Source: Catellatospora paridis (GTDB lineage: Bacteria > Actinomycetota > Actinomycetes > Mycobacteriales > Micromonosporaceae). Taken from it: a DNA stretch of 64,000 bases. The stretch is taken from the NCBI RefSeq assembly GCF_009720365.1, contig NZ_ML769315.1:403621-467620 (forward strand), written 5' to 3'. Within the stretch, counting starts at the first letter, position 1. Each line of letters begins with the position of its first letter. This document shows, one piece after another, positions 4,537-7,336 of this stretch. Both the position numbers and the translations under genes were made by a program. The notes under the pieces are model-generated. The model was not told where the DNA came from, ran no database searches, and worked only from the letters and a program-made list of their open reading frames with translations.

Positions 4537-5190
4537 TCACCAGCCGCGGGTGCGCCACTCCGGCAGGGACGGCCGTTCGCGGCCGAGCGTGCTGTCCTTG
4601 CCGTGGCCCGGGTAGAACCAGGTGTCGTCGGGCAACCGGGCGAAAAGCTTCGTCTCGACGTCGTGCAGCAGCGAGGCGAACGCCTGCGGGTCACCCCAGG
4701 TGTTGCCGACCCCGCCCGGGAAAAGCGAGTCGCCGGTGAACAGGTGCGGGTGCCCGTGCGGGTCGCGGTAGAGCAGCGCGATCGAGCCCGGGGTGTGCCC
4801 GACGAGGTGAATGACCTCCAGCTCGGCCTGACCGACGCGGACGGTCTGTCCCTCCGCGACGGTCTGCGCCTTGACCGGCAGCTCGTCGGCGTCGTCGGGG
4901 TGCGCGAGCGGCGTCGCGCCGGTGGCCGCCACGACCTCGGCGAGCGCCTGCCAGTGGTCGCCGTGTCGGTGCGTGGTCACCACGGTGGCCAGACCGGAGT
5001 CACCGGCCAGCGCGAGCAGGGTGTCGGCGTCGTTGGCGGCGTCGATCAGCAGCTGCTCGCCGGTGTGGCGGCAGCGCAGCAGGTAGGCGTTGTTGTCGTG
5101 CGGGCCGACGGACACCTTGCTGATGACGAGGTCGTCGAGTTCGCGTACGTCGGCGGCCGCGCCGCGGCTCACGTCTCCGGTGTAGGGCAC
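4537..5190 (-). CDS. MBL-fold metallo-hydrolase (glyoxalase II-like)
   Basis: 217 residues with the full metallo-beta-lactamase metal set: H74, H76, D78 and H79 in THRHGDH, H132 in VGHTPGS, D154 in FTGDS and H196 in YPGHG. These bind two metal ions and hydrolyse thioesters or related substrates; the layout is closest to short glyoxalase II-like hydrolases, but the substrate cannot be told from sequence. The GTG start at 5190 follows TAGTCT by 6 nt, so the transcript is probably leaderless. It lies downstream of the GntR gene with 46 bp between them. Confidence 0.88.
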   Translation of the reverse strand: MPYTGDVSRGAAADVRELDDLVISKVSVGPHDNNAYLLRCRHTGEQLLIDAANDADTLLALAGDSGLATVVTTHRHGDHWQALAEVVAATGATPLAHPDDADELPVKAQTVAEGQTVRVGQAELEVIHLVGHTPGSIALLYRDPHGHPHLFTGDSLFPGGVGNTWGDPQAFASLLHDVETKLFARLPDDTWFYPGHGKDSTLGRERPSLPEWRTRGW

Positions 5191-5236: not shown

Positions 5237-5899
5237 TCAGAACAGGCGGGCCAGGATCAGTTCGAGGGCTTCCTCGGCGTGGCGGCGGGACAGCTCGGCC
5301 GCGCGGTCCGCGTCGCGTTTGCGCAGCGCCTCGACCAGGTCCTGGTGTTCGGCCTGGGAGGCAATGATCTCGTCGGGGCGGTAGCGGGCGGCGACCTGGT
5401 CGTTGAAGTAGTACAGGTGGTTCTGCTCGATGACGCGGGCCAGGCGGGGGTTGTGGGCGGCCTCGACGATCAGGTGGTGGAAGCGGTCGTTGAAGACCAC
5501 GAACTCGTCGGGTGGGCCGCCGGCGGACCAGCTGTCGCAGTGGGCGGCGATCGCGGTGAGTTCGGCATCGGTGGCGCGCTGGCAGGCGAATCGGGCCGCG
5601 AACGACTCCAGCGCCATCCGCACCTCGTAGATGGCCACGATCTCGTCTCGGCCGTGCTGGCGCACGATCCAGCGGCGGCGGTGGGACACGATCAGCCCGT
5701 CGGCGGCCAGCCGCTGCAGGCTCTCCCGGATGGGCGTACGGCTGACCTGGAGCTTCTCCGCGATCACGGCCTCGACCAGCGGCTCGTTAGGGCCGATCTT
5801 GCCCAGCACGATCTGGTCGCGCAGCCAGCGGTAGACGTTGTCCGACAGGGTGCGGGTGGCGTGCATCGGTTCGGCGGGCAGATCCTCCGCAGTGGGCAT
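5237..5899 (-). CDS. GntR-family transcriptional regulator (FadR/FCD subfamily)
   Basis: 220 residues. An N-terminal winged helix (DNVYRWLRDQIVLGKIGPNE, then VSRTPIRESLQRLAADGLI) is followed by an FCD all-helical ligand-binding domain with YEVRMALESFAARFA, FNDRFHHLIVEAA and the metal-site-like H in SQAEHQDLVEAL. The ATG at 5899 has GAGGAGG 7 nt upstream; a longer frame to 5965 has no ribosome binding site. Ligands of this subfamily are usually organic acids. Its target may be its own promoter or the downstream metallo-hydrolase. Confidence 0.9.
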   Translation of the reverse strand: MPTAEDLPAEPMHATRTLSDNVYRWLRDQIVLGKIGPNEPLVEAVIAEKLQVSRTPIRESLQRLAADGLIVSHRRRWIVRQHGRDEIVAIYEVRMALESFAARFACQRATDAELTAIAAHCDSWSAGGPPDEFVVFNDRFHHLIVEAAHNPRLARVIEQNHLYYFNDQVAARYRPDEIIASQAEHQDLVEALRKRDADRAAELSRRHAEEALELILARLF

Positions 5900-6085
5900 C
5901 TGGCCGCCTCCTCGTCGTGTCCGTCTCGAGCGCCCACAGTAAACGCATCGACGAGCGGCGGCCATGAGTCCATCACCACAACCGCGCTCGGCTCAGTTGG
6001 TCGACGCGGAGGTCTGCCCCCTGCTGTCCGGTTCGGCGCGACAGCAGTCTGGATCGATGCGGTCACATGGGGTACGCTTCGCTCC

Positions 6086-6148
6086 GTGGTTCGCATGTAT
6101 TGGCGCTTTACGCTGGCTCTGGGTGGAGCCGGCGGTTCTATGCGCTGA
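6086..6148 (+). CDS. Leader peptide of the DAHP synthase attenuator (Tyr-Trp-Arg-Phe)
   Basis: A 20-codon frame in the leader of the DAHP synthase gene. Codons 5-8 read Tyr-Trp-Arg-Phe (6098-6109), so all three aromatic amino acids are tested within four codons. The GTG at 6086 lies 7 nt after a TACGCT -10 box (6073-6078), so translation is probably leaderless; an ATG at 6095 is the alternative. The stop codon lies in the loop of the first hairpin. Starvation for any aromatic amino acid would stall a ribosome here. Confidence 0.75.
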   Translation: MVRMYWRFTLALGGAGGSMR

Positions 6149-6200
6149 CCGCGATTCCACCCAGAGCCAGCAGGGCGAAGACGTCTCGTCTTCGCCCTTT
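6112..6200 (+). promoter_or_regulatory. Transcription attenuator upstream of DAHP synthase
   Basis: There are two adjacent perfect stems. Stem A pairs 6112-6127 with 6156-6171 (16 bp), with an inner 5-bp stem 6132-6136/6148-6152, and spans the end of the leader peptide. Stem B pairs 6172-6183 with 6187-6198 (12 bp, 3-nt loop) and is followed by TTT, as in an intrinsic terminator. The layout of leader peptide, hairpin, terminator and biosynthetic gene is that of amino-acid attenuation. The two stems abut instead of competing for the same bases, so the exact switch is unclear. Confidence 0.75.
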
Positions 6201-6277
6201 GCCATGTCATGGACGGGCTGGCCTGGGACATTCCGAGGTGCGGGGCCCGTCCCCCCACGGAACCGGGAGACGCTCCG

Positions 6278-7336
6278 ATGACCCAGACCAACGACGTCCA
6301 CGTCCTGTCCTTCGAGCCGCTGCGGCCGCCGCGCGAGCTGCTCACGGAGCTGCCGCTCGGTGATCATCGCGCCGCGCTGGTGGAACGGTCCCGCCAGGAG
6401 GTGCGCGACGTGCTCACCGGTCGCGACGACCGGCTGCTCGTGGTGGTCGGCCCGTGTTCGGTGCACGACACCGAGGCGGCCATGGACTACGCCCGCCGGC
6501 TGGCCGAGGCCGCCAAGCAGCACTCCCGTGAGCTGTGTGTGGTGATGCGCGTCTACTTCGAGAAGCCGCGCACCACGATCGGCTGGAAGGGCCTCATCAA
6601 CGACCCGGGGCTGGACGGCACCTACGACGTGCACCGCGGGCTGCGCACCGCGCGGGCGCTGCTGCTCGACATCCTCGACCTGGGCGTGCCGGTGGGCTGC
6701 GAGTTCCTCGACCCGACCAGCCCGCAGTACATCGCCGACGCGGTGACCTGGGGCGCGATCGGCGCCCGGACCATCGAGAGCCAGGTGCACCGCCAGCTGG
6801 CGTCCGGCCTGTCCATGCCGGTCGGGTTCAAGAACACCACCGACGGCGGCGTGCAGGGCGCGATCGACGCCTGCGAGGTGGGCCGCAACAGCCACGTCTT
6901 CTTCGGGGTGGACACCGACGGCCGGGCCGCGATCGTCACCACCACCGGCAACGAGGACTGCCACGTGATCCTGCGCGGCGGCCGCAGCGGCCCGAACTAC
7001 GGCCCCGAGTCGGTGGCCGCGACGCTGGCCATGACCGAGAAGGCCGGCCTGAAGCACCGCCTGGTCATCGACGCGAGCCACGGCAACAGCGGCAAGAGCC
7101 ACGAGCGCCAGGCCGTCGTCTCCGACGAGATCGCGGCGCAGATCGCCGGCGGCCAGGCCGGCATCGCGGGCGTGATGCTGGAGAGTTTCATCGTCGCGGG
7201 CCGCCAGGACCTCGACTCCGGCCAGCCCCTGACCTACGGCCAGAGCGTCACTGACGCCTGCATGAGCTGGGAGACCACCGAGCAGACCCTGGCCACCCTG
7301 GCCCAGGCCGTCACCGCCCGCCGCGCCGCCGCCTGA
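6278..7336 (+). CDS. aroF: 3-deoxy-7-phosphoheptulonate synthase (DAHP synthase), AroG/AroF class I
   Basis: Catalyses condensation of phosphoenolpyruvate and erythrose 4-phosphate, the first step of the shikimate pathway. 352 residues, the usual length of class Ia enzymes. All metal ligands are at the E. coli AroG positions or one off: C60 (VGPCS), H268 (DASHGN), E302 (MLESF) and D326 (SVTDAC). The substrate loops KPRTTIGWKG and EFLDPTSPQY are intact. The ATG at 6278 has GGGAGA upstream. Expression appears to be attenuated by aromatic amino acids through the leader at 6086-6200. Confidence 0.95.
   Translation: MTQTNDVHVLSFEPLRPPRELLTELPLGDHRAALVERSRQEVRDVLTGRDDRLLVVVGPCSVHDTEAAMDYARRLAEAAKQHSRELCVVMRVYFEKPRTTIGWKGLINDPGLDGTYDVHRGLRTARALLLDILDLGVPVGCEFLDPTSPQYIADAVTWGAIGARTIESQVHRQLASGLSMPVGFKNTTDGGVQGAIDACEVGRNSHVFFGVDTDGRAAIVTTTGNEDCHVILRGGRSGPNYGPESVAATLAMTEKAGLKHRLVIDASHGNSGKSHERQAVVSDEIAAQIAGGQAGIAGVMLESFIVAGRQDLDSGQPLTYGQSVTDACMSWETTEQTLATLAQAVTARRAAA

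Follow-up and report, generated by a model that had tools for sequence, protein, structure and literature searches.

The window is a stretch of 64,000 nucleotides from Catellatospora paridis, and the features described below are on its plus strand unless stated otherwise. The gene aroF (6278..7336) encodes a type I 3-deoxy-7-phosphoheptulonate (DAHP) synthase, which matches TIGR00034 (aroFGH) with 495 bits against a cut-off of 173, and its start codon is the ATG at 6278 in a direct reading of the window. Among the matches listed, AroF is 98% identical to the protein of Catellatospora vulcania and 97% identical to that of C. sichuanensis. Because the genome also encodes a type II DAHP synthase outside this locus, it has two or more DAHP synthase genes including aroF. 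A probable aroF ribosome-binding site, GGGAGA, is located at 6265..6270. Two genes on the minus strand encode a GntR-family regulator (5237-5965), divergent from aroF, and a GloB-like hydrolase of the metallo-beta-lactamase fold (4537-5190); each scores below the curated cut-off of the model that it matched.

Upstream of aroF is a leader frame of 20 codons (VVRMYWRFTLALGGAGGSMR, 6086..6148) with a GTG start and a TGA stop at 6146-6148. Its sensor codons UAU UGG CGC UUU (6098..6109) encode Tyr5, Trp6, Arg7 and Phe8, as the preliminary description had read them, and translation could also start at an in-frame ATG at 6095. The -10 box TACGCT (6073..6078), 7 nt before the GTG, is the only recognisable promoter element, and a generic scan of 5900-6400 returned neither a sigma-70 promoter nor a T-rich terminator. 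The 16-bp and 12-bp stems noted earlier are both there on direct reading. The first, stem A, is a perfect helix of region 1 (6112..6127) and region 3 (6156..6171), and the second is the terminator-like hairpin T (6172..6198), in which 6172-6183 pair with 6187-6198 around a 3-nt loop. The two had been placed after the frame, which is true of T but not of stem A, as its 5' arm (region 1) sits in codons 9-14. The stem of T is followed by TTGCC, hence the CCCTTT at the stem end, and the U-tract of the window is weak.

The last base of stem A is 6171 and the first of T is 6172, leaving a gap of 0 nt and no shared bases. From this abutment it had been concluded that the switch would differ from that of trp. 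The abutment stands; what had been missed are two overlapping pairings that make the switch largely trp-like, namely the hairpin P1 (6102..6146, arms 6102-6120 and 6125-6146, pairs 6102-6106/6142-6146 and 6111-6120/6125-6134) and the helix 3:5, in which region 3 (6156-6171) pairs around T with region 5 (GCTGGCCTGGG, 6217..6227) in a duplex of -21.6 kcal/mol. P1 includes part of the sensor and competes with stem A when the leader frame is folded alone. Bases are shared only between A and P1 and between A and 3:5. Three alternatives for these segments have support from comparative pairing: P1, A (1:3) and 3:5. The segment 6086-6206 folds at -73.2 kcal/mol compared to -43.5 +/- 3.9 kcal/mol in 200 shuffles (z -7.6, 0/200).

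Two other features are located between T and aroF. A second small frame (MSWTGWPG..., 6203-6281) begins right after T and its TGA overlaps the aroF ATG (ATGA); it was interrupted or short by eye in two related loci (L002 and L005) and is probably due to chance. A hairpin of GGACGGGC and GCCCGTCC (6211-6218 with 6245-6252) shares part of region 5, and similar hairpins were seen by eye in several relatives.

Relatives of AroF were taken as the best 80 from a scan of genome contigs and, at E <= 1e-80, from searches of the phylum, with matches in 41 of 396 genomes, and of the family, with matches in 169 of 200. The resulting 179 loci, numbered with an L here, include the same species repeated from two collections. 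Leaders having two or more aromatic residues and a TANNNT box 5-9 nt ahead of the start were located before aroF in 140 of the 179 upstream regions. Three of these were not actinobacterial (L068, L077, L080) and were removed ahead of the structure counts, leaving 137 actinobacterial loci with an aromatic leader ahead of aroF. T is present as a separate hairpin in 124 of them and absent from 13. The conservation of the aromatic codons in relatives that had been anticipated was thus found, and its absence was not. Shared 8-mers were used to choose 71 non-redundant representatives, of which 66 bear T; tests on 62 sequences exclude L084, L092, L099 and L101. The limits of T were shifted by hand in seven Promicromonosporaceae loci including three representatives (L012, L035, L038).

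Thirty-nine of the 179 loci had no leader by this criterion. Most of the proteobacterial loci are in this group, as are Thermobifida, Saccharopolyspora and several further actinobacterial bins. Among the thirty-nine, L125 is a miss of the script, which probably kept a second upstream TANNNT, as TATGCT is located 6 nt before its GTG. In L076 (Saccharopolyspora) a region-3-like hairpin, GAGCCGG...CGGCTC, and a TACGGT box are kept and no aromatic leader was found, possibly representing a decayed attenuator. Proteobacterial leaders were treated as a separate group and set aside. Aromatic-rich leaders, such as MFATKFYFYFFWYLRPLADREG and MKFASPAFYFYFYGFLKPLAEEGTRAV, precede DAHP synthase in Paraburkholderia (L062, L065, L078), Pigmentiphaga (L077), Bordetella (L080) and Dyella (L064), with strong T-rich terminator hairpins in L077 and L080, and the four that were scanned against Rfam (L062, L064, L077, L080) gave no match. 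These look like an independent attenuator for the same enzyme.

A covariance model built on 34 sequences matched its own genome strongly at one place (E 7e-30). A search of that genome for a second copy gave only weak matches (E 0.16 to 1.5), the first of them at the same place on the opposite strand. Across the order a single match was found in each of at least 107 of 298 genomes under strict filters that lose weak matches. AroF was encoded downstream at 57 of the 61 model loci checked, a set including some places twice and one chosen for its AroF; the other four were two weak own-genome matches, one match at E 3.8e-4 and one contig end. No model of Rfam release 15, including those for leaders and T-boxes, matched the window or ten relatives above its curated threshold, and the sub-threshold matches were to unrelated sRNA and microRNA families.

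The spacing of the -10 box is highly regular among these leaders. A TANNNT box was located 6-9 nt ahead of an in-frame start in all 132 leaders found by peptide motif, the gap being 7 nt in 92, 6 nt in 30, 8 nt in eight and 9 nt in two. The motif list was composed after the peptides were seen, and the 132 leaders include none from proteobacteria and cover 67 of the 71 representatives. With a background of 0.0026 TANNNT per position and 2.1 in-frame candidates examined in each leader, chance alone would give about 3.5 of 132. In probable Corynebacterium the box was 7 nt before the start of the aromatic leader in 14 of 15 genomes. The distance from a -10 box to the first transcribed base is established for promoters, and together with the fixed gap it would put the first base of the transcript at or next to the start codon. 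The excess over chance strongly supports the earlier suggestion of a leaderless peptide, and the leader of aroF is very probably leaderless.

The aromatic cluster of the peptide varied by clade. It reads YWRF in Catellatospora, Mycolicibacterium and Isoptericola, YQRF and YRWF in other genomes of the window's family, YFWF in Amycolatopsis, Nocardia and Rhodococcus, and RFYF in probable Corynebacterium (13 of the 15 AroF-bearing genomes of that genus). Codon usage at the sensor was strongly biased, as UAU:UAC was 73:11 and UUU:UUC 70:14 in the leaders of the 71 representatives. The corresponding ratios were 1:125 and 0:177 in the first ~1 kb of aroF at 24 of these loci and 11:241 and 1:310 in the 39 long ORFs of the window, a stand-in for whole-genome usage. 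The third place was G or C in 21 of 164 leader Tyr and Phe codons compared to 252 of the 368 remaining codons in this part of the leader (p=1e-34), and the last aromatic codon was 2-5 nt ahead of region 1 in 58 of 66 leaders. Tyr and Phe normally have one tRNA each, which reads both codons, and the bias should therefore not reflect isoacceptor charging. Such a charging theory of codon choice in attenuators has been described (PMC1183508). The bias points to decoding speed, through slow wobble decoding, or to RNA folding, and the rare UAU and UUU codons would probably slow decoding at the sensor.

These patterns bear on whether the leader responds to amino acids at all. Conservation at the RNA level is strong in regions 1 and 3, as would be the case for a constitutive pair of hairpins in which the aromatic codons were a by-product of the conserved RNA. 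It is highly improbable that this is the case as the clades retain the aromatic cluster in differing orders (YWRF, YRWF, YFWF, RFYF), the third-place preference for A or T is specific to the Tyr and Phe codons and the last aromatic codon keeps its distance from region 1. Features of the peptide beyond the aromatics (APGGA, ALGG) are also conserved, which would suit a released leader peptide acting in trans in the manner reported for peTrpL of Sinorhizobium (PMC7298713). However, APGGA and ALGG are encoded by RNA regions 1 and 2, so that pairing can explain their conservation, and a role in trans is considered extremely improbable.

Three alignments picked by clade from the 66 T-bearing representatives (A1, A2 and A3 with 34, 20 and 34 sequences) were used to examine the pairing. 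Two-sided changes were found in 10 of 24 pairs of A and T over 34 sequences compared to 4.4 in shuffles, so the covariation that had been predicted for the stems was seen in both. By helix, T contributed 7 of 10 pairs and A 3 of 14, seven A pairs never varying, and all of the cells of T in the 34-sequence alignment were paired. The RNAalifold consensus of 34 sequences consisted of A, T and three further pairs. For A2, from another clade, the consensus featured P1, with the sensor UGGU paired near the frame end, and 3:5 enclosing T. Matching changes were present in P1, 3:5 and T of this alignment, two-sided ones in one of seven pairs of the 3:5 helix and none of six in the inner P1 helix. Helix 1:3 was present in A2, where change did not exceed that of shuffles and six of eight pairs never vary.

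Pairing within a species was also compared to pairing between species, using statistics that ignore species relatedness. Own pairing exceeded cross-species pairing for 1:3 in 60 of 66 leaders (p=9e-11), for 3:5 in 47 of 66 (p=2e-4) and for the outer arms of P1 in 49 of 62 (p=1e-8), and did so in 33 of 66 for the control 1:5, which was no better. Individual duplexes were above shuffles at p<0.05 in 51 of 66 leaders for 1:3 and in only 28 of 66 for 3:5, and as a group the control 1:5 was also above shuffles (p=8e-4).

The position of stem A relative to T is closely kept. The A-T spacer, scored inside the 24 nt ahead of T, was 0-2 nt in 59 of 66 leaders and 0-5 nt in all 66 (sd 1.1), while the stop-to-T and T-to-aroF distances had sd of 4.8 and 39.9. 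The T fraction at the end of hairpin T was 0.49 compared to 0.13 in the spacer and was higher in 61 of 62 leaders. Several sequences were inspected by eye for an extension of stem A into the 5' arm of T, by which the two would share bases, and none was found. A small helix, CGTC...GACG, that lies right after T and is made up of the U-tract tail and the bases following it, was seen in L006, L011, L022 and L048 with matching changes between species by eye. The distant actinobacterial loci L099, L101 and L102 have RFYY leaders and a T followed by long T-rich tails.

An alternative account is a trp-like switch, in which A and 3:5 are the exclusive pair, T is an accessory within the 3:5 loop and 3:5 is the off-state, either as a polymerase stop or as a lock on leaked transcripts. 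We regard this account as doubtful. The own-versus-cross result for 3:5 and its place in the A2 consensus are in its favor, as are the 13 loci that lack T, among them those of Amycolatopsis, Nocardia and Rhodococcus, in which region 3 pairs directly with a downstream arm in the trp topology and so excludes A. Against it, no U-tract follows region 5, the T fraction over the next 8 nt being 0.09 compared to 0.13 in the spacer and TTTT being absent within 14 nt in 61 of 62 leaders (L016 is the sole exception). The 3:4 hairpin of the 13 T-less loci likewise has no proper U-tract, L039 coming closest, and region 5 was not evident by eye in probable Corynebacterium (L214, L244) or in the distant L101.

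Region 5 could alternatively act in translation if the state of the leader frees or hides the aroF ribosome-binding site through the hairpin of region 5 and downstream bases. A hairpin is close to the aroF start in several species by eye, and in some the downstream hairpin overlaps region 5. Sequestration of the site by the state of region 5 was not supported in the 62 representatives, as the predicted site accessibility with region 5 free was 0.44 compared to 0.49, rising in 13 of the 62 and falling in 24 (p=0.09), the ribosome-binding sites and start codons of aroF being assigned by script. Translational control of this kind is judged very unlikely.

The effect of ribosome position was simulated by masking the RNA up to an edge 12 nt downstream of the first base in the A site. 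The mean probability of stem A was 0.86 with Tyr in the A site (76 codons), 0.89 with Trp (72), 0.51 with Phe (74) and 0.00 with the stop (66), where it was above 0.5 in none of the 66 leaders. With the edge at 10 or 14 nt Phe stayed the weakest of the three and the stop gave 0.00-0.01. Hairpin T folded at a probability of 0.96-0.97 in the whole leader and with the ribosome at the stop alike. For the window, stem A was predicted at 1.0 for Tyr, 1.0 for Trp and 0.42 for Phe, and stalls at codons 2-4 also freed region 1 in the simulation. In silico, then, it is the position of the ribosome that decides the leader fold. The proposal that one leader senses all three amino acids holds in that Tyr, Trp and Phe are all present in the leader peptides of 58 of the 71 representatives, and the simulated response is full for Tyr and Trp but only partial for Phe. 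For the R-F-Y-F leaders of probable Corynebacterium, the first Phe gave more A than the second in 11 of 13 and a Tyr stall was predicted to act in 12 of 13 (A 0.64-0.97); in L243 A was about 0.1 throughout, where T was perhaps misplaced by the script.

We consider it likely that aroF is controlled by a predicted leaderless, ribosome-mediated transcription attenuator. Judging from the -10 box, transcription would begin at or next to the GTG, and the ribosome would load at the 5' end and translate the leader. When charged Tyr-, Trp- and Phe-tRNA are ample it would reach the stop at 6146 and cover the 5' part of region 3, which blocks stem A in silico, and T would then fold and end transcription. 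When Tyr or Trp is short, and to a lesser extent Phe, the ribosome would stall at codons 5-8 and open P1 from the 5' side, leaving region 1 free to pair with region 3 as it emerges. In silico this gives stem A flush against T, and RNA polymerase would be expected to continue into aroF. A stall allows A and completion prevents it; as aroF should be switched on by starvation, A is expected to be the on-state, and T is the best candidate for the terminator given its U-rich end and the U-poor stretch after region 5. As regards the means by which A would block T, we infer that a 16-bp helix standing flush with T crowds the RNA exit channel, so that the base of T cannot close there. Such flush-helix blocking is proposed because the two helices, which have no base in common, stand at a tightly kept distance while neighbouring distances vary more. 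Phage antiterminators that have been described as acting at the exit channel are a loose parallel. When T is present 3:5 could form only after read-through, and in the Nocardia-, Amycolatopsis- and Rhodococcus-type leaders without T the corresponding pairing is a trp-like 3:4 hairpin.

Several observations count against this attenuator model. There is no base-pairing reason for A to stop T, 3:5 cannot act on T until region 5 has been transcribed, the U-tract of the window is weak with no terminator in the scan, and the two-sided changes are mostly in T. The release of region 1 by stalls at codons 2-4, the Tyr response predicted for the probable Corynebacterium leaders and the 39 loci that gave no leader also weigh on this side. 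A tentative proposal, possible while falling short of probable, is an antiterminator without a shared base, in which the flush helix keeps the last pairs of T open inside the polymerase and 3:5 was the bridge by which the Nocardia, Amycolatopsis and Rhodococcus lineages reached a trp-like overlap by losing T.

The aroR-aroF attenuator of Corynebacterium glutamicum was reportedly described by Neshat et al. in 2014. Its aroR leader is reported to attenuate aroF transcription, and according to a review Phe limitation acts on it and Tyr availability does not (PMC4046766, PMC11802643). Both leaders encode an aromatic peptide before a homologous type I DAHP synthase gene. C. glutamicum is compared here through published descriptions; among the leaders examined, those of probable Corynebacterium have the -10 spacing of the window and, by eye, a stem A beside T; region 5, present in the window, was not evident by eye in L214 and L244. 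The stronger effect of the first Phe in the simulation would fit the reported Phe response, and the predicted Tyr response conflicts with the reported absence of one. With its added Trp and abutting antiterminator, the window leader appears to be a variant homologous to the aroR attenuator rather than the same element, as its sensor is Tyr-Trp-Arg-Phe in place of the Phe-Tyr-Phe described for C. glutamicum.

In the E. coli trp attenuator, as outlined in PMC1183508, ribosome position likewise picks between exclusive helices before a terminator, and P1, A and 3:5 of the window take the places of 1:2, 2:3 and 3:4. The window differs in that A abuts T without shared bases, the leader is predicted to be leaderless and three amino acids are encoded in one leader, so that it would be a ribosome-mediated attenuator in its working and not in the classical overlapping topology. 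The ilvB-II motif of Corynebacterium is described as having an actinobacterial leader frame that spans P1 and precedes a terminator, and as sensing several amino acids, although these are branched-chain amino acids and the antiterminator takes bases of the terminator stem (PMC10272879). By its description, the uORFC-13-1 motif of Acholeplasma is a proposed Phe-codon leader frame before aroF with a terminator, but has a ribosome-binding site and is given only for Acholeplasma and environmental sequences (PMC8632094). Leaderless attenuators of Streptomyces lividans (leuL, trpL, ilvL and others) also have hairpins, some without a clear U-tract, and none of the eight attenuators listed there is for aroF (PMC8079986).

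A 2005 survey reported no conserved RNA structure ahead of Phe and Tyr operons in Actinobacteria. A literature search that was mainly open-access and not exhaustive, in part covering excerpts of the sources, found no report of this leader outside Corynebacterium. The aroF leader is now seen across the window's family, the mycobacteria, Nocardia, Amycolatopsis and other lineages. These lineages include makers of natural products, and their aromatic precursors pass through DAHP synthase. The UAU/UUU bias at the sensor poses a clean codon question, and one locus offers a comparative series of abutting, enclosing and overlapping antiterminators.
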